In this document: positions 32,106 through 55,742 of the stretch, piece by piece
How positions within the stretch are numbered: the first letter of the stretch is position 1
How the letters are laid out: each line of letters starts with the position of its first letter
Origin: Klenkia sp. PcliD-1-E
GTDB lineage: Bacteria; Actinomycetota; Actinomycetes; Mycobacteriales; Geodermatophilaceae
Length of the DNA stretch: 64,000 bases
Assembly: GCF_024124375.1 (NCBI RefSeq)
Contig: NZ_JAMXRZ010000001.1
Location: 62,001 to 126,000, forward strand
Direction: 5' to 3'
Translations under genes and position numbers: made by a program
The notes under the pieces: model-generated
Told to the model about the DNA's origin: nothing
Seen by the model: the letters and a program-made list of their open reading frames with translations, nothing else
Database searches by the model: none

Positions 32106-32228
32106 CGACGTCCCCCTCCTGTGGCGGGTGAGGACCCGCCGTCCCCGGTCCGGTGAACCTACGCAGGGCGGGGGTGCGGACGCAGCCGTCCGGGACGGCC
32201 CGCGGCATCGCGTCTCCCGGGCGGGCGG

Positions 32229-32245
32229 CATCGCGCCGGGCGATG
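32229..32245. promoter_or_regulatory. CATCGC-N5-GCGATG palindrome in the LysR gene upstream region
   Basis: CATCGC (32229-32234) and GCGATG (32240-32245) form a perfect palindrome. A further CATCGCG lies at 32206-32212 and GCGATG at 32291-32296. LysR regulators often bind such sites in the divergent region between themselves and a target gene. Confidence 0.5.
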
Positions 32246-32329
32246 AATGCATGGCGCGCAACCGTTCCGATTCGGCCCCGGGTCGGATGTGCGATGCTCG
32301 TCACGCCGGTGCGGATCTCCGGAGGTGGC

Positions 32330-33253: not shown

Positions 33254-33286
33254 CCGTCAGGGCGGACCCGGACGACGTCCCCGGGG

Positions 33287-33736
33287 TCAGCCCGCCGGAC
33301 CGCTGGGCATGAGCGCCCAGACGGTCTTGCAGTCCTCGCGGGTGGTCCAGCCGCAGGACAGCGAGACGTGCGAGACCATGCCCAGGCCCATCCCGCCCTG
33401 GGCCGGGTCGCGCGTGGCCTCGGGTCGCGGCGGGTTCTCGGTGTCGCGGTCGGAGACCAGGACGAGCAACCCGTCCCGGGCTGCGCGGACCTCGACCTCG
33501 ACGGGCGGTCGCCCGTGCCGCAGCCCGTTGGACATCAGCTCGTCGAGGGCGAGCACGCACTGCTCGATGCGGTCCTCGTCCAGGTCGGGCAACCCCGATG
33601 TCTCGACCGGGTCGGTGATCCGGGCCCGGAACTGCCGCCGGACGTGGGTCAGCTCCTCGAGGTCGGTCGGCATCCACGACCAGCAGGCCTCCGAGGGCGG
33701 CGGGTCCCTGCGGGTCCATGCATGCCCAGCCGACAT
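33287..33736 (-). CDS. Anti-sigma-factor-type ATPase (HATPase_c_2)
   Basis: Serine-kinase/anti-sigma-like protein of 149 residues. The GHKL ATP-binding fold shows the N box LALDELMSNGLRHG and the G box GGMGLGMVSHV, with no phospho-His domain, as in RsbW/SpoIIAB-like proteins. It is likely to bind and inhibit a sigma factor or phosphorylate a STAS antagonist such as the one at 39501. Starts at the ATG at 33736 after GGCAGGA. A repeated motif lies just upstream. Confidence 0.82.
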   Translation of the reverse strand: MSAGHAWTRRDPPPSEACWSWMPTDLEELTHVRRQFRARITDPVETSGLPDLDEDRIEQCVLALDELMSNGLRHGRPPVEVEVRAARDGLLVLVSDRDTENPPRPEATRDPAQGGMGLGMVSHVSLSCGWTTREDCKTVWALMPSGPAG

Positions 33737-33801
33737 CGTCCTGCCCCTCGTCGCGCCGCACCCCGACAGCGCAGACACCTGCCACTGCCCGGCGCGCTGC
33801 A

Positions 33802-33833
33802 CCTGAAACGGGACCTAGGTCCTGAATCGGGAC
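33802..33833. promoter_or_regulatory. Direct repeats around a GGACCTAGGTCC palindrome
   Basis: CCTGAAACGGGAC (33802-33814) and CCTGAATCGGGAC (33821-33833) are 19 bases apart, and between and across them lies the perfect palindrome GGACCTAGGTCC (33811-33822). The site is in the divergent region between the anti-sigma-type ATPase gene and the gene at 33913. A similar core recurs at 37861-37886. Confidence 0.6.
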
Positions 33834-33912
33834 GACCGGGTTGACCCGGGTGGGCCCGGGTCGGTGGACTGAGCCATAGCGATACAGGACCGTCCATTCC
33901 CCAGGGGGGCTC

Positions 33913-34434
33913 GTGGTCACCACCTCCGGCGCGGCACGTCCATCCCGGGTACGGACCCAGGGACGCCTGTTGCGCCCCGACGAGCGAGCGGTCGTGGAGC
34001 GGATGGCCGAGGTGTTCCCGGGTGGGCGGAGCCTGGTCGCGGACCTGCACCTCGCGCGAGTGCGCGAGGCGGTCAGCTGGGTGGGCGAGTGCTGTGCCCG
34101 ATCCGTGGTCCTGGTCGAGCACTGGGGACGGCGGGCCGGGGCAGTGGCCTTGCCGGTCCGGGGCCTGCTCCTGGACGACCGAGGTCTGGTGAACGGTGAC
34201 GTCGCGGTCCTCGTCCACGGCGACGCACTGGTCGGTCTCGTCGTCAGGGGTCGGCCTGCCCGCCTCGTCCCCGCACTGCTCGACCCGGCCAGGTTGACGG
34301 TGGTCCCCGAGCCGCGGCGTCCTGCCCACCTCGGCGCGGCGTCGTCCTCGCGTGCCGGTCTGGTGCACAGCCCTGCGGTGGCGTCATCCCGCCTCCCGGG
34401 CCTCGCTGGGGGGGCGTCATCTGCGTCGGCCTGA
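33913..34434 (+). CDS. Hypothetical protein
   Basis: A 173-residue open frame with consistently G/C third positions. It starts at a GTG after GGGGGG. The central part (residues 20-130) is ordered-looking, alternating helices and short hydrophobic strands (RAVVERMAEVFPGG, SWVGECCARSVVLVEHWG, GDVAVLVHGDALVGLVV). The tail from about 135 is Ala/Ser-rich and low in complexity. No family recognised. Possibly a partner of the divergent ATPase gene. Confidence 0.55.
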   Translation: MVTTSGAARPSRVRTQGRLLRPDERAVVERMAEVFPGGRSLVADLHLARVREAVSWVGECCARSVVLVEHWGRRAGAVALPVRGLLLDDRGLVNGDVAVLVHGDALVGLVVRGRPARLVPALLDPARLTVVPEPRRPAHLGAASSSRAGLVHSPAVASSRLPGLAGGASSASA

Positions 34435-34474
34435 GCAGGGCCGCGCCGACGGTCGACACGGGGCGCGCCGCACC

Positions 34475-35149
34475 TCACCCGTAGGTCGGGGTCTGCGGCC
34501 AGCCCTGCGGGCTGTCCTCCCAGTCCTGCTGCCGCCCGTACACCGTGCGGTCCATGATGTGGGCGGTGGGCAGGATGGCTTCGGTGCCCCGCGCCCTGGT
34601 CGTGTAGGTCAGGTAGGGCCTGCCGTCGTGCAGCAGGTAGTAGGAGTAGCCGGGGTGCAGGACCTCGGAGCCGTCCTCGGCGAGCTGGGTCCACCCCCAG
34701 TCGTGGTGGTAGGTGGTGTCGGCGGAGGACACCCAGCGGTGGTCCCAGCCCTGCCGGGCCCGCCACGCCTCGAGCTTCTCGATCGGGGCCTGGGAGACCA
34801 TGGCGAAGGCGATGCCCTCGTCGGCCACGCGCTGCATGTTCGCGGGCAGGTTGTCCACCGCCCAGGTGCAGCTGGGGCAGCCCTCGTCCCAGTCGGGCCC
34901 GTACATGACGTTCTGGACCAGGAGCAGGTACCTGTCCCCGAACAGCTCGGTGAGCCGCACCGGGCCGTCGGGTCCGGTGAAGGTGTAGTCCTCGACCTCG
35001 ACCATGGGCAGCCGTCGGCGGCTGGCCGAGACCCGGTCGCCGTGCCGGGTGAGCTCCTTCTCGGCTGCGACCTGGACGGCGAGGGCCGCGTCGAACGTGC
35101 TGCGGTCGACCACCGCAGGGGTGGCGGCGGGCGGGTCCAGCTCGGTCAT
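34475..35149 (-). CDS. DUF899 family thioredoxin-like protein
   Basis: Protein of 224 residues in the thioredoxin-like superfamily. Typical DUF899 blocks are visible: RRRLPMVEV, LTELFGDRYLLLVQNVMYGPDWDEGCPSC, and later SSADTTYHHDWGW and YYLLHDGRPYLTY. The CPSC pair sits at the CxxC position of thioredoxins (near residue 93). Its substrate is unknown; it may take part in redox or oxidative-stress processes. Transcribed alone with its own upstream gap. Confidence 0.86.
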   Translation of the reverse strand: MTELDPPAATPAVVDRSTFDAALAVQVAAEKELTRHGDRVSASRRRLPMVEVEDYTFTGPDGPVRLTELFGDRYLLLVQNVMYGPDWDEGCPSCTWAVDNLPANMQRVADEGIAFAMVSQAPIEKLEAWRARQGWDHRWVSSADTTYHHDWGWTQLAEDGSEVLHPGYSYYLLHDGRPYLTYTTRARGTEAILPTAHIMDRTVYGRQQDWEDSPQGWPQTPTYG

Positions 35150-35263
35150 GGCGGGTCTCCTGTCCGGACGGCGACGGGTCGGGGATCGGCGCCCCCGCGG
35201 ACGAGGGCGCTGGAGTGAGGACCTGCTCCCTGCTCGGGACTCATCGGTGACGTCGCCGACCGG

Positions 35264-35989
35264 TCAGCGTTTCAGGACCTCGTGGTGCAGCATGTCCCAC
35301 GCGCTGACCCGCAGGCCCGGGGTCGTGACGGCGGCGACCGCGCGCAGGTGGCGGTCGTCGTCGAGGTGGTCCAGCAGCATGGCCGCGAGGTCGTCGCGGG
35401 ACATGACGGGGCCGTCGATGCGGGTGTCGGCGACGGCGTAGCCGGTGCCGGGGGAGTTGGTGAGCCCCGGTGGGCGGACGATGGTCCAGTCCAGGTCGCT
35501 GGCCGACACGGTTGCCTCCATCTGCTCCATGTCGTCGTAGACGGTGCGTCCGACGTGGTCGCGCATCACCGAGCGGGACAGTCGTGCCAGGGCTCCGCGC
35601 GGCTGGTGGCCGGTGTCGACCCCGCCGGAGGTGACGACGAGCAGGCGCCGCCGGTGGTGACGGGTCATGGACTCCACCAGCAGCCGGGCGCTGGTGGAGT
35701 AGACCTGCACCGGCTGCCGGGTGAAGGCGGCGCCGATGGTGCAGATGACGGCATCGGTGGCCGCGACCGCCGTGTCGACGGTGTCGGGGTCGGTGGCGTC
35801 CCCCGCGACGACGCGCAGCCGTTCGTGCCGGATCGGGAACGCCTCCGGGTGCCTGGTCAGCGCGGCCACCTCGTGCCCGCGGTCCAGGGCCTGCTGCACG
35901 ACCCGGCGGCCGGTCGGGCCGTTGGCCCCCAGCACCAGCAGCCGGGGGTGCCTCGGCCCACCCGGGGGGACGGCGGGGTCGCCGGTCAC
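35264..35989 (-). CDS. NAD(P)H-binding NmrA/SDR-like protein
   Basis: Atypical short-chain dehydrogenase (241 aa). The Rossmann motif LGANGPTGRRVVQQ lies near residue 20, followed by ALTRHPEAF, DAVICTIGAAF and VVTSGGVD; the WTIVRPPGLTN block matches NmrA/BVR-B-like reductases. The usual YxxxK catalytic pair is not obvious, so it may be a redox sensor rather than an enzyme. The GTG start overlaps the stop of the flavin-domain gene upstream, forming a MarR-controlled pair. Confidence 0.85.
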   Translation of the reverse strand: MTGDPAVPPGGPRHPRLLVLGANGPTGRRVVQQALDRGHEVAALTRHPEAFPIRHERLRVVAGDATDPDTVDTAVAATDAVICTIGAAFTRQPVQVYSTSARLLVESMTRHHRRRLLVVTSGGVDTGHQPRGALARLSRSVMRDHVGRTVYDDMEQMEATVSASDLDWTIVRPPGLTNSPGTGYAVADTRIDGPVMSRDDLAAMLLDHLDDDRHLRAVAAVTTPGLRVSAWDMLHHEVLKR

Positions 35990-36477
35990 AGGTCGACGGT
36001 GTCGTTGTCGATCGGGTCGCGGCGCGGGGTCCGGGTGACGGCGGCGCGCAGCGTCTGCAGGGCGTAGGACACCGTGCTGGTGGGGCCCTCCCAGTACTCG
36101 GCGCTGTCGGCCTGGATGCGGATGAGGGTCAGCCCGGGGGTGTCCAGGCCCTGCGGGAACCAGGCCTGCAGCACCTTCGTGTAGAGCTGCTCGGCCTTGG
36201 CGCGGTCGTGGACGACCTGCGCGGTGCCGGCGATGGAGGTCCAGGTGTGGTGGCCGTCGTCGGAGAAGGACACGTTCACCGACGGGGTGGCGCGCAGCTG
36301 GCGCACCTTGGCCGAGTCCTCGTGGGCGAAGAACCACAGGTCGCCGTCGAACTCGGCTTCCTGCAGGGCCATCGGCCGGCTGACGTGCGTGCCGTCGGCG
36401 GTCATGGTGGTCAGCATCGCCACCTTCGCCTTCGTGACGAGGTCGGCGATGTGCTGCTGGTTCTCGGTGCTGGTCAT
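35986..36477 (-). CDS. Pyridoxamine 5'-phosphate oxidase-family protein (general stress type)
   Basis: Split-beta-barrel flavin-binding-like protein of 163 residues. Family features: KAKVAMLTTMTADG, SRPMALQEAEFDGDLWFFAHEDSAKVRQL and NVSFSDDGHHTWTSIAG. It is closest in form to the general-stress protein 26 group, which binds FMN or related flavins but does not make pyridoxal phosphate. A perfect 20-bp palindrome lies 21 bases upstream of its ATG, so it is probably repressed by the divergent MarR protein. Confidence 0.87.
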   Translation of the reverse strand: MTSTENQQHIADLVTKAKVAMLTTMTADGTHVSRPMALQEAEFDGDLWFFAHEDSAKVRQLRATPSVNVSFSDDGHHTWTSIAGTAQVVHDRAKAEQLYTKVLQAWFPQGLDTPGLTLIRIQADSAEYWEGPTSTVSYALQTLRAAVTRTPRRDPIDNDTVDL

Positions 36478-36497
36478 GGGTGCTCCCCTTCCGAGCG

Positions 36498-36517
36498 ACT
36501 TACAGATATCTGTAAGT
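36498..36517. promoter_or_regulatory. Perfect 20-bp palindrome, likely MarR operator
   Basis: ACTTACAGATATCTGTAAGT is a perfect palindrome in the 97-bp gap between the leftward flavin-protein operon and the rightward MarR gene. It is strongly AT-rich against the surrounding sequence. Its length and symmetry fit a MarR dimer. It could control both directions. Confidence 0.8.
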
Positions 36518-36574
36518 TACTCGCGGTCCTGGATCCGGCAACCTGGTCAGCCGACGAGGTCGAGGAGGTGCCGC

Positions 36575-37069
36575 GTGCAGGCGACAGGGGATGCAGACCC
36601 GGAACTGGACGAGGTGCTGGCCTGGAACCTGGTCCAGGTGGCCCGGTTCGTCGGGTACCGGATGACGCTGGACCTGGCCGGGCACGGCATCAACCCGATC
36701 CAGTTCGGGGTGCTGGCGTTCCTGTCGGTCAGCCCCGAGATGACCACCTCGCAGATCGCCCGCGCGGTGCTCGTGCGGCCGCAGAGCATGACCCCGCTGC
36801 TGGACGGCCTCGAGCAGCGCGGACTGGTGCGCCGCACCGGGACCCGGGCCCGCGGCCGGCGCAACCCGGTCCAGATCACCGACGCCGGCAGGGGCCTGCT
36901 GCGCGACGCCCGCCCGGTCGCCCGCGCCACCGGCGAGCTGCAGGACGCCGGCCTCGGCGCCGAGGAGAGCCGGCAGCTCAACCAGCTGCTGCTCAAGGTC
37001 GTGCACGCCACGCGTGATCTGCCGCGACCGGACGCGAGCCTCTACCCCGCCGACCCGGACGGGTTCTGA
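36575..37069 (+). CDS. MarR-family transcriptional regulator
   Basis: Winged-helix regulator of 164 residues. The DNA-binding region covers about residues 40-105: INPIQFGVLAFLSV, TTSQIARAVLVRPQSMTPLLDGLEQRGLVRR and the wing GRRNPVQITDAGRGLL. A strong ribosome site (GAGGAGG) lies 7 bases before the GTG at 36575. It is divergent from the flavin-protein/NmrA operon, with a perfect palindrome between them, so autoregulation and repression of that operon are likely. The signal, perhaps a phenolic or an oxidant, is unknown. Confidence 0.9.
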   Translation: MQATGDADPELDEVLAWNLVQVARFVGYRMTLDLAGHGINPIQFGVLAFLSVSPEMTTSQIARAVLVRPQSMTPLLDGLEQRGLVRRTGTRARGRRNPVQITDAGRGLLRDARPVARATGELQDAGLGAEESRQLNQLLLKVVHATRDLPRPDASLYPADPDGF

Positions 37070-37090
37070 CCCGGCACCACGCCGGACCCG

Positions 37091-37822
37091 TCAGCCGCGT
37101 CCACCGGCTGCGAACAGCTCGTCGGCCAGCGGGTCGTCGACCGCCTCGATGCCGATCACGTGGCCGAGGCCGTTGCGCGGTCCGCCGAGCTCGGTGGTGG
37201 AGACGCAGATCCCGGTGGCCCGGTCGAGGAGGACGAGGTGGGCGTCGGCGTAGGCGGTGGGTGCGATGCCCTCGAGACGGTCGGCGACGGCGGAGGGCAG
37301 CAGGGGGCAGCAGGCGCAGCGGGGTTCGTAGGCCGGAGCGGGGACGACCGTCGCCGCCCAGCCCGGGCGCCCGCGGTGGTCGACGGCGTGCACGTCGGTG
37401 ATGGTCGTGCCGGCGGGGCCGCGCTCGGGGTCGCCGTCCGCCAGTTCGACGGGGTCCAGGCAGGCGATCCAGTGGTAGTCGCGGTAGAAGGGCGCGTCGG
37501 TGTCGAAGCGGTCGACCACCGACCGGTCGGCGACCAGGCCGTCGTCCCGGCGACGGGGTGCCGGCAGCGTCGTGGTGGGCCGTGCGGGTTCTCCGCCGCC
37601 GGCGGTGAGCACGACGGCCGAGCCCGGTGGCAGGACGCCGGCCTGCAGGAGCCGCCCGTCCAGCGTCTCCACCCGCAATGAACCAGGACGGCGCACCCAG
37701 GCCCGCACGGGCTCGGCGTCCCAGCCGCGCCGCGCGGTGTAGGTCAGCTGGACGGTGCTCCACAGCCACGGCGACGACCGCGCCAGCGCCCGGAAGTCCA
37801 CCGCCGACAGCTCATCGCCCAT
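37091..37822 (-). CDS. Hypothetical protein
   Basis: A 243-residue soluble protein. Visible features: an N-terminal helix FRALARSSPWLWSTVQLTY, a strand-rich first half (VRAWVRRPGSLRVETLDGRLL), an aromatic segment FYRDYHWIACLDPVEL, and a cysteine cluster RCACCPLL near residue 172. The rest resembles a fold for a small ligand or for DNA-linked enzymes, but I do not recognise a family. It starts at an ATG; a 26-bp palindrome lies in the region shared with the divergent GGDEF gene. Confidence 0.7.
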   Translation of the reverse strand: MGDELSAVDFRALARSSPWLWSTVQLTYTARRGWDAEPVRAWVRRPGSLRVETLDGRLLQAGVLPPGSAVVLTAGGGEPARPTTTLPAPRRRDDGLVADRSVVDRFDTDAPFYRDYHWIACLDPVELADGDPERGPAGTTITDVHAVDHRGRPGWAATVVPAPAYEPRCACCPLLPSAVADRLEGIAPTAYADAHLVLLDRATGICVSTTELGGPRNGLGHVIGIEAVDDPLADELFAAGGRG

Positions 37823-37860
37823 CCCGACCCCCCGACTTCCCGTCTGCGCCGCACCGTAGT

Positions 37861-37886
37861 CAGGTCGGGACCTTGGTCCCGACCTG
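37861..37886. promoter_or_regulatory. Perfect 12-bp-arm palindrome between hypothetical and GGDEF genes
   Basis: CAGGTCGGGACC, a TT centre, and GGTCCCGACCTG form a perfect palindrome. Its core CGGGACCTTGGTCC differs by one base from CGGGACCTAGGTCC at 33809-33822. It lies between divergent genes, which argues for an operator rather than a terminator. Confidence 0.7.
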
Positions 37887-37965
37887 GACGGGTCGGGTGA
37901 CCCGTCGGGGTGGACCCGGCATTCGTCCGCTCCAGCTGTCCTCCGCCGTGGACGTCACCCCCACC

Positions 37966-39399
37966 ATGACCGAGGTGATGGAGTACCGGCCGTCGACGTC
38001 GACCGGCGGACGCGGCCACCTGAGGGACGGTTTCCCGTCCCTCCCCGACGGCGACCAGCTGTCGGCCGTCCTCCGGCTGGTGTCCGCGGTGAGCGGTCGG
38101 GACCGGGTCGCGGTCGTGCTGGCCGACCGGTCTGCCCTCCACTACCTCGGCACGGACGGGGGATGGGCCACGGTGGGCTGGGACGGTGCGCTCTGCGAGG
38201 CGACGGTGCTGTGCGGGAGCGTGGTGTCGGTCGCCGATGCGTCCCTGGATGCCCGGTTCGCCGGCAGCCCCTGGGTCGACGGCCGGCGCGGGACGGTGCG
38301 GGCCTACACCGGGGTGCCCCTGGTCTGCGGTGACCAGGTCGTGGGGAGCTTGTGCAGCACCAGCGGGATCCCTGGAGCCCTGCGCGACGACCAGGTCGCG
38401 GCGTTGGGGGACCTCGCCACGCTGGTGGTCGCCGTGCTGGACCGGTGGTGGGCGGCCGAGGAGCTGGCGACGGCGCACGCCGAACTGGTGCGGGCCCATG
38501 CCGACGCGGCCCGCGAGCGTGCCTTCACCCATGCCCTGCTGGAGGCCCTGCCGGTGGGCGTCGTGGCGGGCGATGCCGACCAGCGGGTGCAGCTGTTCAA
38601 CCGGGTGAGCAGGCAGTGGCACGGCCAGGACACCGACCCCGGGGTGCTCCCCGAACAGCTGTCGGTGGCCTACGACCTGTTCGAGGCGGACGGGGTGACC
38701 CCGCTGGCCGAGGACCGCATCCCGCTGCTGCGGGCCTACCGCGAAGGTCGCGTCGACCATGCCGAGATCGTCATCCGACCCCACGGCCACGCCGCCCGGA
38801 CGGTGGCCTGCTCGGCCACGCAGGTGCGGGACGACGACGGCGAACTGCTCGGCGCGGTGGTCGCGATGGCCGACATCACGCCGCACCGGGACCTCGAGCG
38901 CCAGTTGCGCAGCGCCGCACTGCACGACACCTTGACCGGTCTGCCGAACCGGCGGCTCCTGCAGGACCGCCTGGAGCACGCCCTGCACTCATCGGGCCGG
39001 GACCGCTCCTGGGTGGCGGTGCTCTACGTCGACCTGGACGGCTTCAAGGCCGTGAACGACCAGCACGGCCACGCGGTCGGGGACGAGGTCCTGGTGCTGG
39101 CTGCGCACCGGTTGACCGCATCGGTCCGCACGGGGGACACGGTGGCCCGGATGGGCGGGGACGAGTTCGTCGTCCTCTGCCCCGGCATCGTGCACACCGA
39201 GGAGGTCCAGACCTTGTCCCGGCGCCTGGCGACGGTCTTCTGCGAACCGCTGGTGACCTCGGCCGGGCCGCACCGGCTGAGCCTGAGCGTCGGGCACGCA
39301 CTGGGCCAGGCCGACGCCGACCCCACGCGCCTGGTCGACGCCGCCGACCGGGCGATGTACCGGACGAAGAAGGCTCGGCGCGCAGCTCGAGTTCGTTGA
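37966..39399 (+). CDS. GAF-PAS-GGDEF diguanylate cyclase
   Basis: Signalling protein of 477 residues. Order: GAF domain (about 20-160, VLCGSVVSVADAS, GTVRAYTGVPLV), a short coiled helix, a PAS domain (about 185-300, LLEALPVGVVAGDADQRV), then a GGDEF domain (about 315-475). The active site is intact: HDTLTGLPNRRLL, VDLDGFKAVND and RMGGDEF. An RTGD product-inhibition site sits five residues before GGDEF, so it should make cyclic di-GMP with feedback control. No ribosome site decides between the ATGs at 37966 and 37978. Confidence 0.88.
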   Translation: MTEVMEYRPSTSTGGRGHLRDGFPSLPDGDQLSAVLRLVSAVSGRDRVAVVLADRSALHYLGTDGGWATVGWDGALCEATVLCGSVVSVADASLDARFAGSPWVDGRRGTVRAYTGVPLVCGDQVVGSLCSTSGIPGALRDDQVAALGDLATLVVAVLDRWWAAEELATAHAELVRAHADAARERAFTHALLEALPVGVVAGDADQRVQLFNRVSRQWHGQDTDPGVLPEQLSVAYDLFEADGVTPLAEDRIPLLRAYREGRVDHAEIVIRPHGHAARTVACSATQVRDDDGELLGAVVAMADITPHRDLERQLRSAALHDTLTGLPNRRLLQDRLEHALHSSGRDRSWVAVLYVDLDGFKAVNDQHGHAVGDEVLVLAAHRLTASVRTGDTVARMGGDEFVVLCPGIVHTEEVQTLSRRLATVFCEPLVTSAGPHRLSLSVGHALGQADADPTRLVDAADRAMYRTKKARRAARVR

Positions 39400-39500
39400 G
39401 CCGGCGCACCCGCAATCAGGACCTGAGGCCCTGGGCGCGGGGCCGGCCGGCGCGTTGCATGGGCCCAGCACCGTCAGGTGCGCCGCAACAGGGAGGGTCC

Positions 39501-39935
39501 ATGGGTCTGTCAGCAGGTGCGGCATCGGCGGACGGTCTCCTGGGCGGCACCGGTCGTGCTGACCCGCTCCCTCAGCACGGACGGATCCGTCACGGGGGCA
39601 ACAACTCGGCGACGGTGGACACGCTCGACGGGTCCGTCGTCCTCCGGGACGGTGTGCTGTGCCTGCACGGTGAGGTCGACACCCAGCTCGTCCAGCTCTT
39701 CCAGCGCTGCCGGCCCCGGTTCGACGACGTCCGCTTCGTCGACGCCACCGGGGTCACCTTCATCGGGTGTGCCGGGTTGAGGCTGCTGGCCGCGGTCAGC
39801 CCTGCGGCCCCTGTCCGCCTCGCGGCCAGCCCCCTGGTGCTGAGGCTCGTGCACGCCGTCGGCATGCACGGCTCCTTCGAGCTCGAGCCCGCGGACCCCG
39901 CGAGCCGGCCCGCTCGGCTCGCGGCCGCCGGCTGA
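39501..39935 (+). CDS. STAS-domain protein (anti-sigma factor antagonist-like)
   Basis: Protein of 144 residues with a poorly conserved first 45 residues, then a STAS domain: VVLRDGVLCLHGEVDTQLV, the region FVDATGVTFIGCAGLRLLAAVSP and a last helix ending ELEP. In SpoIIAA/RsbV the phosphorylated residue lies in D-S-S-G; here the position reads D-A-T-G, so Thr could be the acceptor. GGGAGGG precedes the ATG. It may partner the ATPase at 33287-33736 in a partner-switch. Confidence 0.75.
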   Translation: MGLSAGAASADGLLGGTGRADPLPQHGRIRHGGNNSATVDTLDGSVVLRDGVLCLHGEVDTQLVQLFQRCRPRFDDVRFVDATGVTFIGCAGLRLLAAVSPAAPVRLAASPLVLRLVHAVGMHGSFELEPADPASRPARLAAAG

Positions 39936-39954
39936 CGACGACGGACAGCCGGAC

Positions 39955-40269
39955 ATGCCGAACTTCCGCCTCGTCGCCGACCACGGGGAGCCCGCCCAGC
40001 ACTTCGGTGCCGCCGATGCAGATGCAGCCGAGTCGCACGCCCGCGAGCTGTCCACCGCGTACCCGACGGCGAAGAGGACCGGGTACCGGCTGGAGCAGGA
40101 GACCGACGGGCAGTGGCACCTCGTCCGTGTCTGGCTACCGCGCCGCGTCGCCTACTACCCCGGAGGGGCGGACACCATGGTCCCGCCCGGTGTGGAACCC
40201 GCCGGACCGCTGGCCGAAGGCCACCGCCAGCGGTCCGCTCCTGGTGGCTCGCCCGGTCCCTGTTCCTAG
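39955..40269 (+). CDS. Hypothetical protein
   Basis: A 104-residue open frame, ATG at 39955, 19 bases after the STAS gene. The first 65 residues (FRLVADHGEPAQHFGAADAD and TGYRLEQETDGQWHLVRVW) look like a small alpha/beta domain; the last 35 residues are Pro/Gly-rich and may be shadow. No family recognised. It is the last chromosomal gene before the tRNA fragment. Confidence 0.5.
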   Translation: MPNFRLVADHGEPAQHFGAADADAAESHARELSTAYPTAKRTGYRLEQETDGQWHLVRVWLPRRVAYYPGGADTMVPPGVEPAGPLAEGHRQRSAPGGSPGPCS

Positions 40270-40314
40270 GCCGGCTCCGGGCGTGGGCCCCGCCCACGAT
40301 CGGCGGGCTCTGCG

Positions 40315-40359
40315 TGGAGCGGGTGACGAGAATCGAACTCGCACTGTCAGCTTGGGAAG
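40315..40359 (-). repeat. Attachment-site fragment: 3' half of tRNA-Gly(CCC)
   Basis: Read on the minus strand, the sequence gives the anticodon loop TTCCCAA, the 3' anticodon strand GCTGA, a T arm GCGAG-TTCGATT-CTCGT, the acceptor strand CACCCGC, T and CCA. The 5' half is missing: the bases before the anticodon loop do not pair with GCTGA and there is no D arm. It is therefore a duplicated 3' fragment, as left by a tyrosine integrase. The core is about 45 bases. Confidence 0.8.
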
Positions 40360-40375
40360 GACCAGTGCGGCGCAC

Positions 40376-40404
40376 AAAAGCCCAGCTCAGAGGGCCTGTT
40401 TTTG
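40376..40404 (-). terminator. Hairpin with T run after the integrase gene
   Basis: On the minus strand GCCC (complement of 40392-40395) and GGGC (complement of 40380-40383) form a short stem with an 8-base loop, followed by TTTT. It lies about 30 bases after the integrase stop. A T run on the plus strand (40399-40403) suggests it can work in both directions. Confidence 0.55.
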
Positions 40405-40435
40405 CTTGTCACCCCGCGCGTGACCTAAGAATGAC

Positions 40436-41596
40436 CTAGCGCCTGGGCCCGGGACGGTTCGTCGGCCTGCTTCGGCGAGTGGTTGGAGGCGGGGGCGGCG
40501 GTGGCTTGATCCGGGCCTCGAGGGCGCGAGCGATCTCGGCGTCGCGGTCGTCGTTGGCGTGCTGGTAGATCAGCGCGGCGTCCGGGCTGGCATGGCCGAG
40601 CCGGCGCATCAGCTCCTTCGTGCTCGCCCCGGCCGCGGCGGCGAGGGTGGCGCCGGTGTGCCGCAGCTCGTGCAGCCGGACCGGTCCGAGCCCGACGGCG
40701 TCGGCGGCGCGGCGGAAGGTCTTGCCGAAGTTGGCCACGCTGAGGAACCCGCCGCTGCGGGTGCCGAACACGAGCGCGTCCGGGGTGTCCGGCACGTAGC
40801 GGTCCATGTGCTTGAGCAGAGCGATGCGGACGCTGGTCGGCAGGGCGACGGTGCGGTGCCCGGCCTCGGTCTTGGGCTCACCGACGACCCAGCGGCCGTC
40901 GTAGTAGCGCACGGCCCGTTCGATCCGTAGCCGTTCCCCTCCGTCCAGGACGTCAGACCGGCGCAGGGCGGCTGCTTCGCCGAACCGGAGCCCGGCGAAG
41001 GTGAGGACCAGGACGAGCGCGCTGTACCGGTCGGTGCGGGTGGACCGGCCGAGGTGGTCGGCGACGGCGGTGGCCTCGGCGGCGGTCAGCGCGCGGGACG
41101 GGCGTGCTGCCTTGGGGGTGGACGCGCCGCGCAGCTTGCACGGGTTGGCCGGGATGGCGTCGTCGGCGACGGCGACACCCAGGACGGCGCGCAGGAGGCG
41201 GTAGCTCTGGGCGAGCACGGCCGGCCCCGTGGTGGCGGCCGCGGTGGTGTGCCAGCTGCGCACCATCGCCGGGGTGACATCACCGACCTCGACGCCTGTC
41301 CAGCGGTCGGCGAGGTGCAACCGCCACAGGTTGGCGTAGAGCACCCGGGTCGAGTCGCGCAGGTCCTGACGCTTCAGATAGTCGGCGGCAAACTCATCGA
41401 CCGTGCGGCGAGCGCCTTCGGGTGCCCGCCACATGCGGCGGACGGCGTCGGTCTGCTGGGTGGCCAGCCAGACCCGGGCGTCGGCTTTGGTGGGGAACGT
41501 GGCCGACCGGCGCTTGCCGTCCGGCCCGGTGCAGCGGGCACGCCACTTGCCCGACTCCATCTTGTCGATGGCGCCGAAAGACGCGCGGGAGGCCAT
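40436..41596 (-). CDS. int: Tyrosine-type site-specific integrase
   Basis: Integrase of 386 residues, normal for actinobacterial element integrases. N-terminal SAM-like arm-binding and core-binding domains (residues 1-160; KMESGKWRARCTGPDGKRR is an AP2-like DNA-binding start). The catalytic domain has all residues: Arg204 (AGLRFGEAA), Lys242 (EPKTEAGHRT), His309 and Arg312 (HELRHTG), His335 (LGHAS), and nucleophile Tyr344 (IYQHAN). The Pro-rich tail is unusual but harmless. Lying beside the tRNA fragment, it should recombine this tRNA-Gly site. Confidence 0.95.
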   Translation of the reverse strand: MASRASFGAIDKMESGKWRARCTGPDGKRRSATFPTKADARVWLATQQTDAVRRMWRAPEGARRTVDEFAADYLKRQDLRDSTRVLYANLWRLHLADRWTGVEVGDVTPAMVRSWHTTAAATTGPAVLAQSYRLLRAVLGVAVADDAIPANPCKLRGASTPKAARPSRALTAAEATAVADHLGRSTRTDRYSALVLVLTFAGLRFGEAAALRRSDVLDGGERLRIERAVRYYDGRWVVGEPKTEAGHRTVALPTSVRIALLKHMDRYVPDTPDALVFGTRSGGFLSVANFGKTFRRAADAVGLGPVRLHELRHTGATLAAAAGASTKELMRRLGHASPDAALIYQHANDDRDAEIARALEARIKPPPPPPPTTRRSRPTNRPGPRR

Positions 41597-41608: not shown

Positions 41609-41833
41609 TCAGACCGCGGTGGAGGACGGGCCCGTCGAGCGCACGGTCCCGGCATCCAGGTAGGTGTCGAGGTCGGACTGCCAGAAGCGCAGCGAGCGGC
41701 CGGCCTTGGTGTGGGTCAGCCGGCGCTCGGCGACCAGTCGGTACACCAGCCGGCGGCCGCAGCGCAGGTAGGCGGCGGCGCTGTCGATGTCGTGCAAATG
41801 GTCAGTGGTCCGGTTGTTCGAGGTGCTGGTCAC
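41609..41833 (-). CDS. xis: Excisionase-like helix-turn-helix protein
   Basis: A 74-residue protein with a MerR/excisionase-type helix-turn-helix: DIDSAAAYLRCGRRLVYRLVAERRL followed by the wing THTKAGRSLRFWQSDLDTYLDAG. Similar small proteins next to integrases act as directionality factors or plasmid-copy regulators. It precedes the integrase by 12 bases on the same strand, so they are probably co-transcribed. Confidence 0.85.
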   Translation of the reverse strand: MTSTSNNRTTDHLHDIDSAAAYLRCGRRLVYRLVAERRLTHTKAGRSLRFWQSDLDTYLDAGTVRSTGPSSTAV

Positions 41834-41926: not shown

Positions 41927-44900
41927 TCACCACAGGAGCGCCGAGCGGGTTGCCATCGCTGGCCGACGTTCCTGGGCCGGGGGGTGCGTAGATGACTCGA
42001 CGACCCCAGCACCGGTCCGAACGGTCGGGTCAACGCTGCATGCGATCCCGGCAGGGTGGTGCCTGTCGCTGGCGGTGAACGTCTCGGCAAGGGCGATGTC
42101 GGGCGCGACTCCGGTCCGTGCGACTACGTGGGTGAGCAGGGCCGGCCATCGGTGCACGGGCAGGGCCGCGATGACCTCGGCGGACCGCCGCACCGCCGCG
42201 ACCTGCCCTTCGACGGTGGCCAGCCGGTCCTGCAGCTCGTCGATGCGGCGGTCGACGACCACGTCGGCCAGGGGGGTCGGTGACCGCAACGCTCGGAGGA
42301 GTGCGTCTGCCCCAGCGACCTGCAGGAACGAGGCTGGGTCGTCGCCGTCGGGCAGTGCAAGCGAGCCGGCGTCCTTGGCGCCGATGGTCCAATAGATCCG
42401 CTCGGCCGACAGTCGCCCAGCCGCGTCGGAGTCCATCGCCACGATCAACCCCGCCTGCTTGCTGCCGGTTGCGGCCTGCAGGAGGTCAGCCTGCACGTCG
42501 GTGAAGGCGGTTCCGAGTGGGGCGATGCCGACGTATTGGTGCGCGCCGGCGAGGGTGACGGCGAGGGCGTCGATGGGTCCTTCGACCAGGACGGGGGTCG
42601 TGCCTGTCGTCAGGTGGGCGCGTGCTTCGTGCAGTCCGAAGAGGTGGTGCCCCTTGGTGAAGGCGACGGTGGCGGGGGTGTTCAGGTACTTCGGCGCAGC
42701 CGGATGCGGGTGCCGGTCCCGGTCGGGGTTGCGTCGCCCGATCCAGCCGACGATGCCGTCGTCGTCCTGGATGGCGAACATGACCCGGTCGCGGAAGCGG
42801 TCGATGAGCCGGCCCGACGTTGATCGGGTCGCGAGCCCGGCGGCGACCAGCTCCTCGTCGGTGGCGCCTGTGTCGCGGAGATGCTCGACCAGGGTCGTCC
42901 AACCGTTTGGGGCGTAGCCGACCGCATGTTCGGTCGTGCCGAGCGGATCTGTTCCCAGTCGTGTGACGAGGTAGTTCTGCGCCCAGGAGTCCGCGTAGGC
43001 GCTGTCGTAGAAGTCGGCTGCGAAGTCGTTTAACTCGAGAACTCGACCGCGCAGAGTTCTCTCAACGGTGCGATTTCGGGCAGGGGGCGGTGTGGGGTTG
43101 TTGATGGGCGTTTCGATGGCGTCGAGCGGCTGGCCGGTTGGTTCGGTGGCGTGGACGGGGAGGTGGTCGACGAGGCGCCACCACAGCGCGGCCGCGGGCT
43201 GCTCGTCGGGCAGTGGGCGGACGGTCAGCGCTGCCAGGAGCGATCGGCCGTTGGGGTCGCTGATCCGGGCGGTGGTGAGCTTGTCCAGGAGTACGGGCCA
43301 GTAGGGGTCGTCGATGACGTCGGGAGCGGCGCCGCGAAGTGCTGCGGCCCATCGGACCGCGTCGGTGGTGCTGGCGCCCACGCAGCGGCGCACACGATCG
43401 TCGAGGTGTTGCTGGTGGGCGGCGTCGGCGGCTGTCGTGCTCGGCCCGCCGGTCGGTCGTGGGTCGGAGGGTTCGGTGCTGGTGGCCGCTCGCCAGACCG
43501 CGAGGTCGCGTAAGAGCGCGGGGTCTCCTGACAGGGGCCGGGCCCACATGGGTGCTGATGTCGGGGTCCAGCTGGTGGCGCGGTCGGCGACGGCCTGGGC
43601 GTGGTCCCGCACTCTGTTGGCGCGACGGGTCAGGTAGCTGCCCCAGACCGGATCCTCGCCGAGCACCTGCGGGGTCGCTGGGAGCCAGGGCAGTGGCGGG
43701 GGTGGCCCGTCGGGGCCGGGTGGGCCGATGCGCCAGTCGAGGACTGCGGCGGCATCGCGCGCGGTGTCCAGACCGCGCGGGTCGTCGGTGGCTTCCTGCA
43801 GGATCTGTGCGGGGTCGTAGCCGGCCGCGGCATGCAGCGCCAGGTCTGCCCGCAGCGCGGGGTAGGCCGGTGCGTCGGTCAGGCCCGCGACGGTGGTCTC
43901 GGCCGCACGGTCGATGGCAGCCATGCCGTCCGAGCCGACCTGCTCCTCTGCGGCGGTGGCTAGAGCGTGGAGGTAGCGGCCAACCTCGGCCGCCAGCTGG
44001 CGCGCGGGGTCGTCCTGGTCGGCGGCGATGCTGGTGGCCGATCTCGGTGTGTCGTCGCGGGTGAGGATGCGCTGCAGGACCTCGATGGCGGTGGGGGGCA
44101 GGACGCCGTCGCGGGTGATGGCGGTGTGGGGGTCGCCGTCGCCGGTCACGGTGACGTAGGCGTGGTTGCTGTGCCGTCCGCGGGTGAGTGCGACGTAGAG
44201 CTGCTGCCGGGATTCGGTGCCGGTGACGACGGTGTAGCTGGTGTCGGCGGTGACGCCTTGGGCGCTGTGGACGGTGGTGGCGTAGCCGAGGGTGACGTGG
44301 TCACGGATGTAGTCGGCGGGGAGGGTGACCAGGGCGGCGGTGGCGGTGTGGACGACGTCGACCGCGCCAGATGGTCGGACGGCGGTGATGGTCCAGCGGT
44401 CGCCGTTGGTGACCCATCCGGTGGTCCCGTTGGGCAGGGTGCGGTCGTTGCGGCGGCTGATGACGACGTCGCCGGCCGAGGCGGCCGTCCCGTCGGCGAG
44501 TGCGACCTCCCGGCGGGCGGGGCCTTCGCGGGCGAGGCGGTCGGTCCGGGCGCGCAAGTTGAGCTGGGTGACCAGGTCGCGGGTGGGGGCGAGCATCAGG
44601 GGATCGCGTCCGGCGGCCCGGTCGGCAGACCAGGCGGTGTAGGTCTGGTCGAGGCAGGAGGACAAGTCACCGACCTGCAGGCGGCCTCGGTCGGCGTAGT
44701 ACGCGAGGGCCGCCGGGTCGCCATCCCGGAGGGCAAGGGAGGTCGCGCCCTCGACGGTGTTGGGTACGCCGGTGTCGGGGTGGGTGAACCGGACGACCTC
44801 GTCGAGGCGGGCCGCGCCGTGGGAGCGGGCGAGGTCGGCGAGCAGGCCGCCGGCGCCGACCGGGCCCAGCTGTTGGTCGTCGCCGATGAGCCGAACCGAC

Positions 44901-46993
44901 CCACCCGCGGCGAGGACGGTGGTGACGACGCAGGCGAGGTCCTGGGTGGTGGCGGCCCCGGCTTCATCGATCACGACCAGGGAGGTGGGGCCGACGGTGG
45001 TGAGCCAATCGGGTACGTCGACGCCGGTCTGGGTGGCATGCACGAACTTGGCGACGGTGTCGGTGCTGTCGCCGAGCTGCTCCCGCAGCACCGAGCTGGC
45101 CGCGGCGGAGGGGGCCAGGCCGATAACGGTGCCGCTACCGGCTCGCCAGGCGGCGGCGAGGGTGCGCAGGGCGAAGGTCTTACCCGTGCCCGCCGGCGCA
45201 ACCGCCACCTGCAGTCGCGCCCCGGAGCAGGCCAGGGCGCGGACGAAAGTTGCCTGGCCGGAGTTCAGCGGCCGCCCAGACTCCTCGGCAGAACGCAGGG
45301 CGTCATCGACCGCCTCACTCGGGGTGACGTGGCCGTCGAAGCGTGCGGCTGCGTCCAGGACCGCCCGTTCTGCGTCTAGCACCTCATCGGAGGTGTAGTG
45401 CGCGGACCCGACGACCTCGTACATCGAGGCGCCGTCGACCCGTCGCAGCACAGCGGGTTCGCCGTCCTCGGCCAGGGGGGTGAGCCGGCGGGAAGTGGGG
45501 GGTGACAGAGCGCGGGTGACGATGTCCTCGACCACCCGGTCGAGGTCGCAGGTGCGCACGCCGGCGTGGCGGGCGCGGCGTTCGGCCTCGGCACGCAGGT
45601 GGGTCTCCTGCCAGGTGGCGCGGGTGGTGCCGACGCGGGCGACGGCGGCGGCCGCCATCGTGTCAAGCCAGGCAGGGGTGACGTCTGGTCCCGGCGGCCG
45701 GCGACCGGGGTGCAGGGCACGGTTGATAAAGCGGTCGAGCTGCTGCTCACCGCCGAGCGCGGCGAGGGCTTCGGCTCGCCATGCCGCGCGTTGCTCGGCG
45801 TGGGTGCGGGGTTCGTGCTTGGCCTGGCGGGTCTCCAGGTTGGCCTGCTGGGCCAGCTGGATCGCCTCCCGAGTGGTGGGCGGTCGGCCGTGGTCGGCCT
45901 GGAAGGTCGTGGCCAGCGCCGCGCGGCGGGTGTCGATGGCGGCACGGCGGGAGGACCACAGGCGGGGCAGGGGCCCGTCGATGCCGACGATCTCCCGCAC
46001 CGCCCGTTTGCCGGTTTCGCTGCCGGGACGTTCGGCGAACCGGACACCGAGGCGTTCGACGAGGAAGACCTCGATGCGGGTGTTGTACCGCTCGGACGCG
46101 GCGACGACGTTGGCGTACAGAGGACGTCCGTCCAGGGCCAGCCAGCGCCCGTCCACGGTCTGGACCTTGTTGCTGATGGCGACGTGGGTGTGCAGGTCGG
46201 GATCGCCGGCCCGGGAGTCCCGATGGGTGAACGCTGCGGCCAGCAGGCCGTGGACGTCGATCTGGGCGACGCCGTGGCGGCCGGTACGGCTGAAGGTGGC
46301 ATGGTCCTCGAGCCAGCCCAGGACGTCGGCGACGGCGTCGGCGTGGGCCCGCTCGATCACCTCCGCGACCTCTCGCGGCGCGATGGCCCACAGCGTCGAC
46401 ACGCTCTTGACGGGGCTGAACGTGAGGTCGTAGCCGGCCACGGCGGTGGTCTGCTGCCGGGAGATCCGCGCGAGGTGCCCGGACAGCTCGCGGGGGTTAA
46501 GCGGGTCGCGGCCGAACTGCTCACGGAACATGCCTACGGCGATCTCGGTCCGAATGCGGGCGCGATCCTCGGCGGGTACCCCGGTCGTCCCGGCTTCGCC
46601 GTGGGCAGCGTTGAACTCCCGGTAGGCGATGGCGCTGCGGCGACGGAATTCCCCGACCGCCGCGAACACCGGGTATGGCGCCCCCAGCCGCGATGCCCGG
46701 TCGACCGCTGCGGCGACGGCTCCCGCGGCGGCCGCGTCCTGCTCCACCTGCACACGGTTGGGGTGACGTCCCTCGCCGAACAGCGCCAGCATCTGCGCCT
46801 CGGCGACATCGGGCCCGATGACGTCCCCGGTCAGGCCGTCGAGCCCGCGCCCCATCCACCGGCCCGGTGATTCTCCCCGCGCCATGTAGTAAGCCGACAG
46901 CCCGCCGGGGGCAGGCGCGGTGGTGTCCTGCGCGGCTACCTGACGGCTGAGATAGGTGTAGCCGTCCCCGGCGGTCAGCTTGTGCACCGTCAT
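41927..46993 (-). CDS. MobF-type relaxase fused to helicase and DnaG-like primase core
   Basis: A 1,688-residue multidomain transfer protein. N-terminal TrwC/TraA-type relaxase (1-300): Tyr in GDGYTYLSRQ, YYMARGESPGRW, and the metal-binding HUH triad in AAFTHRDSRAGDPDLHTHV (His257, His268, His270). A RecD-like helicase follows (550-960) with Walker A APAGTGKTFAL near 601, VVIDEAGAATTQDL and a C-terminal TVHSAQG/ALTRGRHSNH motif. The C-terminal third (1380-1600) is a DnaG-type core: FRDRVMFAIQDDDGIVGWIGR, the TOPRIM Glu in LVEGPIDAL and AMDSDAAG. No DnaG zinc finger is seen. The ATG at 46993 is my start; a GTG one codon earlier is possible. Confidence 0.9.
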   Translation of the reverse strand: MTVHKLTAGDGYTYLSRQVAAQDTTAPAPGGLSAYYMARGESPGRWMGRGLDGLTGDVIGPDVAEAQMLALFGEGRHPNRVQVEQDAAAAGAVAAAVDRASRLGAPYPVFAAVGEFRRRSAIAYREFNAAHGEAGTTGVPAEDRARIRTEIAVGMFREQFGRDPLNPRELSGHLARISRQQTTAVAGYDLTFSPVKSVSTLWAIAPREVAEVIERAHADAVADVLGWLEDHATFSRTGRHGVAQIDVHGLLAAAFTHRDSRAGDPDLHTHVAISNKVQTVDGRWLALDGRPLYANVVAASERYNTRIEVFLVERLGVRFAERPGSETGKRAVREIVGIDGPLPRLWSSRRAAIDTRRAALATTFQADHGRPPTTREAIQLAQQANLETRQAKHEPRTHAEQRAAWRAEALAALGGEQQLDRFINRALHPGRRPPGPDVTPAWLDTMAAAAVARVGTTRATWQETHLRAEAERRARHAGVRTCDLDRVVEDIVTRALSPPTSRRLTPLAEDGEPAVLRRVDGASMYEVVGSAHYTSDEVLDAERAVLDAAARFDGHVTPSEAVDDALRSAEESGRPLNSGQATFVRALACSGARLQVAVAPAGTGKTFALRTLAAAWRAGSGTVIGLAPSAAASSVLREQLGDSTDTVAKFVHATQTGVDVPDWLTTVGPTSLVVIDEAGAATTQDLACVVTTVLAAGGSVRLIGDDQQLGPVGAGGLLADLARSHGAARLDEVVRFTHPDTGVPNTVEGATSLALRDGDPAALAYYADRGRLQVGDLSSCLDQTYTAWSADRAAGRDPLMLAPTRDLVTQLNLRARTDRLAREGPARREVALADGTAASAGDVVISRRNDRTLPNGTTGWVTNGDRWTITAVRPSGAVDVVHTATAALVTLPADYIRDHVTLGYATTVHSAQGVTADTSYTVVTGTESRQQLYVALTRGRHSNHAYVTVTGDGDPHTAITRDGVLPPTAIEVLQRILTRDDTPRSATSIAADQDDPARQLAAEVGRYLHALATAAEEQVGSDGMAAIDRAAETTVAGLTDAPAYPALRADLALHAAAGYDPAQILQEATDDPRGLDTARDAAAVLDWRIGPPGPDGPPPPLPWLPATPQVLGEDPVWGSYLTRRANRVRDHAQAVADRATSWTPTSAPMWARPLSGDPALLRDLAVWRAATSTEPSDPRPTGGPSTTAADAAHQQHLDDRVRRCVGASTTDAVRWAAALRGAAPDVIDDPYWPVLLDKLTTARISDPNGRSLLAALTVRPLPDEQPAAALWWRLVDHLPVHATEPTGQPLDAIETPINNPTPPPARNRTVERTLRGRVLELNDFAADFYDSAYADSWAQNYLVTRLGTDPLGTTEHAVGYAPNGWTTLVEHLRDTGATDEELVAAGLATRSTSGRLIDRFRDRVMFAIQDDDGIVGWIGRRNPDRDRHPHPAAPKYLNTPATVAFTKGHHLFGLHEARAHLTTGTTPVLVEGPIDALAVTLAGAHQYVGIAPLGTAFTDVQADLLQAATGSKQAGLIVAMDSDAAGRLSAERIYWTIGAKDAGSLALPDGDDPASFLQVAGADALLRALRSPTPLADVVVDRRIDELQDRLATVEGQVAAVRRSAEVIAALPVHRWPALLTHVVARTGVAPDIALAETFTASDRHHPAGIACSVDPTVRTGAGVVESSTHPPAQERRPAMATRSALLW

Positions 46994-47244: not shown

Positions 47245-48432
47245 ATGACCACCACTGCCACGGCCAACCCGACCGCGACGCCGTCCACCCGCGAGCTGGT
47301 CGAGGTCGACCCGGCCACTTTGCTCGTCGATCTGAACGTCCGCCATGACACCCGCCTGGACGCCGACTTCTGCGCCAGCATCGCCGAGCACGGCGTCCTG
47401 GTCCCCGTCGTCGCCGTCCGCACCGCCGACGGGGCACTGCGGGTCCGGTACGGCCACCGCCGCACCCTGGCCGCCGTCCAGACCGGCCGGCACACCGTGC
47501 CGGTCGTCATCGCCGCCGACGAGGCAACCGACGACGCGGCGACGGTGGAGCGGCTGGTCACGCAGTGGGCGGAGAACGAGCACCGCACCGGGCTGACCAC
47601 GGCCGAGCGCGCCGACGTCATCGGTCAGCTGTCGGCTTTCGGTGTCACCCCCACCCAGATCGCTCGCCGCACCCGCGCCACCAAGACCGAGGTCACCGCA
47701 GCCCTGGCCGTGCACGGGTCCGAGCTGGCCCGTGCCGCCTCGTCCCGATACGAGTTCCTGGACCTCAATCAGGCCGCCGTCGTGGCCGAGTTCGACACCG
47801 ACCCCGAAGCGGTCAAGGCCCTGGTCGTGGGCGCCCGGGAGGGCCGGTTCGACCACGTCGCGCAGCGGCTGCGCAACGACCGCCGCGACGCCGCCGCCCG
47901 CGCCCAGGTCGCCGACGGGCTGCGGGAGCAGGGGGTGCGGGTCATCGACAAGCCCGCCGGGGACGACCCGGCCCGGGACCTGCACCGCCTGGCCGACGCC
48001 GACGGCACCCGGCTGACCGCCGCCACCCATCAGGGCTGCGAGGGCCATGCGGCCTACGTCGGGCAGGAGCACGGGTGGCGGTTCGTCGACGCCGACGGCC
48101 AGCCCCTCCCCGACACCGGCCAGGACGACGACACCGACGACCAGGACGATGACGAGGACCTGGCCGACGAGGAAGACGACCTCGACACCGGGGGAGGGGC
48201 CCGTCGGGAGTGGGTCAGCTGGGCCGCGCCCCGCTGGGTGTGCACCGACCCCGCAGCGCACGGCCACCTCGACGCCTGGGCCAACCACGGCGGCAGCGGT
48301 AGCGGCCGCGTTCCGGCGGCCGAGCTGAGCGACGACGAGCGGGACGCCGCCCGCGCCGCCCGCCGTGACGTCATCGACTCCAACAAGACCTTCCACGTTC
48401 GCATTGGGCAAGCCTCGAGCTCGCCGAGGTAG
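47245..48432 (+). pseudogene. ParB-like partition protein, N-terminal fragment
   Basis: ParB N-terminal nuclease-like domain (residues 15-110: VEVDPATLLVDLNVRHD, SIAEHGVLVPVVAV, RYGHRRTLAAV, WAENEHRTGLTTAERADVI) and a KorB/ParB helix-turn-helix (TPTQIARRTRATKTEVTAAL). An acidic low-complexity stretch follows (residues 290-315). GAGGAG lies 7 bases before the ATG. True similarity ends at VIDSNK (base 48387); the last 15 codons come from inserted DNA. The missing C-terminal part continues in frame at 50983. The fragment might still be translated as a 395-residue protein. Confidence 0.82.
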
Positions 48433-48493: not shown

Positions 48494-49342
48494 ATGAGCA
48501 TGGAAGGGCTGCACGCAGTGCCCACTCCCACCGTCGGGGGCTGGATCGAGGAGCGGCTGCGCGGCTTCGGCAGCACCGTCGCGAGCAACGTCCCGACCGG
48601 GTTCGGGGCCTACGCCCGCGTTCTGCACTCCGTCGACCTCCATGCACCTCCCGCGGCTTCTGGCAACGACGCGGAGGATCAGGGCGCGACCGTGACGTGG
48701 GCCCAGGTGTGCGAACGGACCGGTCGCACTCCGCACGCCCTGATGCAGTGGCGCTCCATCACCTCTCCGAATCCTGAGCGAGATCTGTCGCTGTCCTCCG
48801 AGGGGCTGTGGGACGAGGTGACAGTGCAGGAGGGGACGCTGCAGCCAGCGCCGCTGGCCCGGCTACTGGATGTCTTGGCCCCCTTCACCGGGGATCAGGA
48901 GTGCTATCACGCGCTGTGGGAGGGCTACGGCTGGCTCCATGGGTCGAGCTCCCTGATGGTGTTCACCCAGGCCGACAGCCGCGACGGTTCCCCATCGCTT
49001 CCACCCCGGCGGGCTGAGGTGCCGCGGCAGCTGCAGCAGGCGCTGGCCGCGCCGCGCCTGTCGCTGCCCGGGCGGAACTACTTGCTCTTCGCCGGGCCGC
49101 TGCGCGGGGCACTGGCCATGGGCCATCAGGTCACCGACGACTGGGTCATCCCGCAGTCGCCGAACCTACTGTGGCCAGCGGACCGCTCCTGGTGTGTATC
49201 CAGCGAGATCGACTTCGACTCCACATTGGTCGGCGGCTCCGCCGAGCTCATCGAGGTCGTGCTGGCCGCACCCGGGCTGGAGGCGTGGGCGGTGGGCGAG
49301 GACGACGACCTGAGCTTGTTCGCCGACACGCTCAACAGGTAA
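48494..49342 (+). CDS. Conserved hypothetical protein inside the insertion
   Basis: A 282-residue protein. The pattern GGWIEERL, GFGAYARVLHSVDL, TWAQVCERTGRTPHALMQW, a central CYHALWEGYGW, RNYLLFAGPL, and SPNLLWPADRSWCVSSEIDFDSTLVGGS matches a common actinobacterial hypothetical family that I recognise by pattern but cannot name. The start at ATG 48494 avoids the leader shared with ParB; no good ribosome site is visible. Its last codons overlap the transposase stop by 11 bases tail to tail, so the IS may have replaced its extreme C-terminus. Confidence 0.72.
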   Translation: MSMEGLHAVPTPTVGGWIEERLRGFGSTVASNVPTGFGAYARVLHSVDLHAPPAASGNDAEDQGATVTWAQVCERTGRTPHALMQWRSITSPNPERDLSLSSEGLWDEVTVQEGTLQPAPLARLLDVLAPFTGDQECYHALWEGYGWLHGSSSLMVFTQADSRDGSPSLPPRRAEVPRQLQQALAAPRLSLPGRNYLLFAGPLRGALAMGHQVTDDWVIPQSPNLLWPADRSWCVSSEIDFDSTLVGGSAELIEVVLAAPGLEAWAVGEDDDLSLFADTLNR

Positions 49343-53853: not shown

Positions 53854-53874
53854 GGATGCGGTGCACCGGCGTGT

Positions 53875-55741: not shown

Positions 55742-55742
55742 C

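Follow-up and report, generated by a model that had tools for sequence, protein, structure and literature searches.

Insertion of mobile DNA into the ends of tRNA genes is a well-known route of bacterial gene gain. Among the described systems that come closest to the locus studied here are the IMEs that occupy tRNA 3' ends: these have a tyrosine recombinase, a core duplication that restores the tRNA and a relaxase of their own, and no known canonical IME encodes a relaxase of the MobF or MobH type (2017 review, PMC5704250). Actinobacteria also host AICEs such as pSAM2, which have a tyrosine integrase and use an FtsK/SpoIIIE-type translocase together with a RepSA, RepAM or Prim-Pol replication protein, and T4SS-type ICEs, in which an integrase accompanies a TrwC/MobF relaxase (PMC3218068). 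A further point of comparison is a set of copper/respiration genes on plasmids of Rhodococcus fascians D188 and Mycobacterium gallinarum (pJCM6399): ccdA, tlpA, VKOR, DsbA-like, ccsB, resB and lnt, along with CDF, M23, BlaI, M56, ctaD, copC and CtaG.

The window (the whole stretch of 64,000 nucleotides that was analysed) is part of contig C111 of a soil-type actinobacterium of the genus Klenkia, and it holds one end of an element that probably continues on a separate contig of the same assembly, C205. This element has all three of the IME features listed above, its relaxase being recognised by a TrwC match (E 4.2e-84), and no coupling protein, VirB4 or T4SS was seen among the Pfam-scanned genes in the sequenced parts of C111 and C205 (the scan covered the genes on the two sides of the contig gap between C205 and C111, except a few that were short or had clear homologues). 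It differs from IMEs in that the relaxase is MobF, and in its large size, which is at least 77 kb if it is one element. With AICEs it shares an actinobacterial host and a tyrosine integrase, but it has a TrwC relaxase, and neither the translocase nor the replication protein of that class was found among the same scanned genes. It also has the integrase and TrwC/MobF relaxase of T4SS-type ICEs; however, the VirD4-type coupling protein and VirB4 that mark that class were not found in that gene set either, and the only TraG-type match is on another contig, C207. The plasmid genes listed above all recur in the Klenkia cargo. What sets this cargo apart is its integration at a tRNA, where a phage-type integrase accompanies it, and its linkage to nuoA and nuoH-N; NuoH-like genes also occur on plasmids.

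A shared 45-base core on two contigs

The following features define the end of the element within the window:
40315-40359, minus strand: attR-type core, the 3' half of a tRNA-Gly(CCC) gene (anticodon loop to CCA), 45/45 identical to the intact gene at C205:1295-1368
40360-40440, no strand assigned: right att arm, in which TGACCTA occurs twice (at 40421 and 40432); this arm is kept in other Klenkia elements
40436-41596, minus strand: tyrosine integrase, 386 aa (Pfam Phage_integrase PF00589, E 1.3e-15), with 91-96% identical orthologues in four relatives
41609-41833, minus strand: HTH_17 protein, 74 aa (PF12728, E 6.4e-9), directly upstream of the integrase and likely an excisionase

On the minus strand the fragment reads CTTCCCAAGCTGACAGTGCGAGTTCGATTCTCGTCACCCGCTCCA and corresponds to nucleotides 30-74 of the C205 gene, which ARAGORN calls as a complete tRNA-Gly(CCC); identity at every position rules out a chance or random tRNA-like match, and a search of the 4.5 Mb genome with the core returned an E value of 5.5e-16. 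The bases 5' of the fragment, ...CGCACTGGTC, are non-tRNA sequence, i.e., the 5' half of the tRNA is absent. The integrase reading frame is intact, contains HELRHTG and the tyrosine in ALIYQH, and stops 76 bases from the fragment. Thus, both the truncated tRNA and the complete integrase that a sequence-only reading of the window had recognised are borne out.

That reading also expected an intact tRNA-Gly(CCC) to close the element far to the right. ARAGORN finds no complete tRNA in the whole window, and none closes the element in the 47.9 kb that separate the fragment from the right end of C111. In the whole assembly, the intact gene occurs once, on C205, and the fragment once, in the window; the intact copy lies with element DNA past its 3' end, so that the two cores are direct repeats in the correct orientation, one completing a tRNA and the other a 3' fragment. 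The predicted gene and its orientation therefore hold, but not its place on the window's contig, and for this reason the far end can be reached only across a contig break.

Past the intact tRNA, C205 continues with CACAAAACCGCAGGTCAGAGGC and then with four TGACCTA/TAGGTCA sites; together with the two beside the fragment, the att arms hold 6 of the 16 such sites on the two contigs (179 kb). Similar arms recur in K. brasiliensis (G001), K. taihuensis (G002), K. soli (G004) and Modestobacter sp. Leaf380 (G005), the four relatives in which the integrase has its close orthologues, and in which the HTH_17 gene beside it is 82-96% conserved. The clustered sites resemble integrase arm sites, and we predict from their sequence that the integrase binds them.

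Empty sites in relatives and strain-specific DNA outside the fragment

To the left of the fragment, two features delimit the chromosome:
31175-31744, minus strand: NADPH-dependent FMN reductase (Pfam), the conserved chromosomal edge, which lies 100-150 bp past tRNA-Gly(CCC) in the empty sites of G006 and G007
31800-40314, no strand assigned: strain-specific DNA of ~8.5 kb (LysR, HATPase, DUF899, NAD(P)-binding, PNPOx-like, MarR, GGDEF)

Relatives that lack the element supply the pre-insertion arrangement. In G006 and G007, a methyltransferase, tRNA-Gly(CCC), the FMN reductase and further C111 genes follow one another uninterrupted, collinear with C111 for tens of kb; G016, which belongs to another genus, has an empty site too and retains the methyltransferase as well as most of the C111 order that follows. 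The same methyltransferase precedes the tRNA on C205, and C205:14-1391 is collinear with K. brasiliensis and K. taihuensis through the tRNA. The empty sites thus join exactly the two chromosomal flanks that had been predicted, that is, the C205 flank with its tRNA and the window's left chromosome, and it follows that C205 and C111 represent opposite chromosomal sides of a single occupied site. GC content is 0.70-0.71 in the element arms vs 0.75 in the chromosome.

The sequence-only reading had set the chromosome to the left of the fragment and the element to its right. The sides are right, but ~8.5 kb of strain-specific DNA comes between fragment and conserved chromosome, and 40315 is consequently the edge of the integrase unit and not of the whole island: the accessory island starts near 31.8 kb, and the fragment bounds the unit last moved by the integrase. 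The zone from 31.8 to 40.3 kb contains no second tRNA fragment and has no syntenic match in eight relatives from the genus, in which matches are limited to single genes located elsewhere. We also considered an outer att concealed close to the chromosomal edge and rejected it, since the best match in the zone (23/45) is at background level. In none of the occupied genomes does the fragment adjoin conserved chromosome; the extra DNA outside it differs in each relative (~2.8 kb in K. taihuensis, 3.9 kb in K. soli, 2.9 kb in Modestobacter sp. Leaf380 and roughly 26 kb in K. brasiliensis). An older tandem insertion whose outer att has been lost would be a fair explanation for the 8.5 kb zone.

A MobF fusion protein and the means of transfer

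To the right of the HTH_17 gene, the window contains:
41927-46993, minus strand: MobF relaxase-helicase-DnaG-type primase/Toprim fusion, 1688 aa (Pfam)
47245-48432, plus strand: weak ParB_N-like protein (PF02195, E 3.7e-5, just under the cut-off)
49332-50678, minus strand: IS110-family transposase (PF01548, E 1.9e-37)
52372-64000, no strand assigned: start of the copper/respiration cargo (Pfam: TlpA, frameshifted CcdA, VKOR, DsbA, ArsR, P-type ATPase, ResB, CDF, CcsB, Lnt)

Besides TrwC, the MobF protein has AAA_30 (E 4.8e-52), DNAG_N (E 4.6e-25) and Toprim_2 (E 1.1e-9) domains. Relatives that are 41-47% identical over ~90% of its length are found on actinobacterial plasmids, and the same fusion occurs on plasmids of Pimelobacter, Nocardioides and Paenarthrobacter; a literature search for MobF with Toprim found no papers. 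Because a relaxase is present and no coupling protein or T4SS is seen, we read the integrase unit as a mobilizable element.

A possible partner lies on C207 (88 kb), which holds the genome's only TraG-D_C match, that of a T4CP, beside TrbL/VirB6 and a second MobF relaxase that is 66% identical to the one in the window; C207 also encodes a T2SSF protein, and no tyrosine integrase of the window's type was found on it. C207 is likely a second integrated element, of conjugative type, and the most economical reading is that its system could mobilize the element described here. C207 also contains, at 12922-12966 (L011 9922-9966), an exact 3' half of tRNA-Gly(UCC) type, followed by an arm like the left arm of the CCC element. 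This match was rejected as the element's other end: it is a tRNA-Gly(UCC) 3' half with flanks of its own, and C184 carries the intact tRNA-Gly(UCC).

A copper and respiration cargo

From 64000 to the end of C111 the cargo continues with M23, cupredoxin, M48, BlaI, COX1, CopC, CtaG/CopD, P450, MotA-type, CsoR/CopZ and nuoH-N genes (Pfam). Cytochrome c maturation is represented by ResB, CcsB, CcdA and TlpA; the remaining cargo of C111 and C205 includes COX1, CtaG, CopC/CopD, P-type ATPases, CsoR, CopZ and a multicopper oxidase, as well as lipoprotein enzymes, M23 peptidases and complex-I-like membrane subunits. That a package of the same kind occurs on Rhodococcus and mycobacterial plasmids points to capture of this cargo from a plasmid pool. 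Literature searches found no paper on copper genomic islands in Geodermatophilaceae and none on ctaD/ResB copper plasmids.

Three further observations concern this DNA. A ccdA-like gene at 52961-53900 of the window is split by a frameshift that leaves its N-terminal and C-terminal parts in different frames. Many cargo genes are present in duplicate, C111:114372-138762 vs C205:4619-29695, in largely inverted order. C205:2392-3188, ~1 kb inside the element's left end, encodes a HigA/HigB-like toxin-antitoxin pair (Gp49 and HTH_37) that possibly serves maintenance of the element.

Probable joining of C205 and C111, and competing explanations

The two contigs contribute 47.9 kb (C111) and 29.6 kb (C205), at least 77.5 kb in all, well above the 23 kb that had been proposed as a minimum from the window. 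Their ends do not overlap directly. Both break off within a gene that we call X, which follows nuoA on C205 and whose tail adjoins nuoH on C111, and the orientations are compatible; in G007 and G014, nuoA-X-nuoH-J-K-L-M-N form one cluster, with X of ~390 aa, and alignment of gene X indicates that roughly 100 aa are missing between C205 and C111. A single accessory nuoH is present in the genome. At the C205 end, gene X appears to be interrupted by an XRE-like piece, which we set aside: its last 127 bases are identical to an internal stretch of C183, and the interruption is most likely a k-mer assembly artefact. We infer that C205 and C111 are likely two parts of one ~78 kb element; the join is no more than likely, because another contig, C78, offers a second nuoA-X start.

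Taken as a whole, the locus is very probably the outcome of integrase-driven insertion at tRNA-Gly(CCC), with C205 and C111 likely forming a single, apparently mobilizable element of ~78 kb. The tyrosine integrase would have inserted the element into the sole tRNA-Gly(CCC) gene of the chromosome, within its 3' half, and duplicated the 45-bp core, such that the tRNA is made whole again by the C205 copy (attL), while the copy at 40315 marks the other end as attR. The integrase and the small HTH protein could excise the element as a circle, which the MobF relaxase may allow to be mobilized by the conjugation machinery of another element, e.g., that on C207; the cargo would contribute functions in copper handling and cytochrome c maturation, together with one more oxidase subunit and a membrane module resembling complex I. 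The identity of the cores, the single intact tRNA, the matching arm sites, the empty and filled sites in relatives and both flanks all support the insertion. Counting against it, no single contig spans both ends, and one simple integration does not account for the ~8.5 kb outside the fragment.

Alternatively, the island may be composite. At least two elements would then have accumulated side by side at this tRNA, with the C205 and C111 parts being separate and related, and the outer 8.5 kb the residue of an older element without its outer att. The different extra DNA outside the fragment in each occupied relative fits such accretion, as do the cargo genes shared by C205 and C111 (49-91% identity; COX1 91%, MotA-type 91%, Lnt 76%, ResB 73%); yet no internal att core was found on either of these contigs, both end inside one nuo cluster, and the genome holds no second integrase of close type (other matches, ≤38%). 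We regard a composite island as a realistic possibility, on the less probable side. It is improbable that the right end of C111 instead joins C78, a rearrangement between duplicated copper/nuo clusters having split the att ends. C78 lies beside the opu operon, a core chromosomal locus of Klenkia, in a neighbourhood with the same kind of cargo, and it too ends in nuoA and the start of gene X, 76-82% like those of C205; but this join requires a chromosomal rearrangement where the C205-C111 join requires none, and in K. taihuensis a single contig carries opu and the tRNA-Gly site, separated by ~620 kb. Still less credible is a decayed relic, with a non-functional integrase and unrelated flanking cargo: although the cores at similar sites in K. 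brasiliensis (29/45) and K. taihuensis (38/45) have decayed, and the ccdA gene of the cargo is frameshifted, here the core is perfect, neither the integrase nor the HTH gene is disrupted, and both genes are conserved, as are the arms.

One integrase module with different loads

Insertion by an integrase at a tRNA gene, the preferred explanation, is an ordinary and well-understood type of event, and it had been deduced correctly from the window's letters alone; the relatives now back that reading. Added interest comes from the reuse of one integrase chassis and one tRNA for different loads, and from a MobF gene on an apparently mobilizable element. In Klenkia, one tRNA-Gly(CCC) locus appears as a docking site in repeated use by one integrase/HTH module with conserved arms. 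The elements of the four named relatives share integrase, HTH gene, arms and tRNA with that of the window. Three are complete from intact tRNA to fragment (8.9 kb in K. taihuensis, 10.5 kb in K. soli, 15.0 kb in Modestobacter sp. Leaf380); in K. brasiliensis, the integrase and left arm are present and the core is decayed. The three units with both att ends differ from the Klenkia island in size (9-15 kb vs at least 77 kb) and in cargo, which is mostly of defence type as opposed to copper/respiratory with a relaxase, and they hold no MobF homologue. Tentatively, and with some doubt, we propose that the element is a ~78 kb IME that pairs a MobF relaxase-helicase-primase with a copper/respiration package, on an integrase chassis that swaps defence cargo in sister species; if so, it would combine MobF with an IME, a combination unknown among canonical IMEs according to the 2017 review. 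With attB and the attP arms defined, and with relatives whose site is empty, direct tests of excision, integration and trans-mobilization are possible.

The cargo of the sister elements (L079, L077, L083, L085) is mostly of defence type, and includes a type II R-M set (cytosine methylase, Vsr and an ATPase-type restriction enzyme), DUF4062 with an ImmA/IrrE-type protein, and a NACHT protein of 2244 aa that matches Avs weakly; K. brasiliensis has the PADLOC candidate PDC-M68 (PDC-M68B). Members of a wider integrase clade (64-73% identity; L154-L176) lie, in several genomes from different genera of the family, beside 3' halves of either tRNA-Gly(CCC) or tRNA-Gly(UCC), a distribution in which target switching between isoacceptors is possible.
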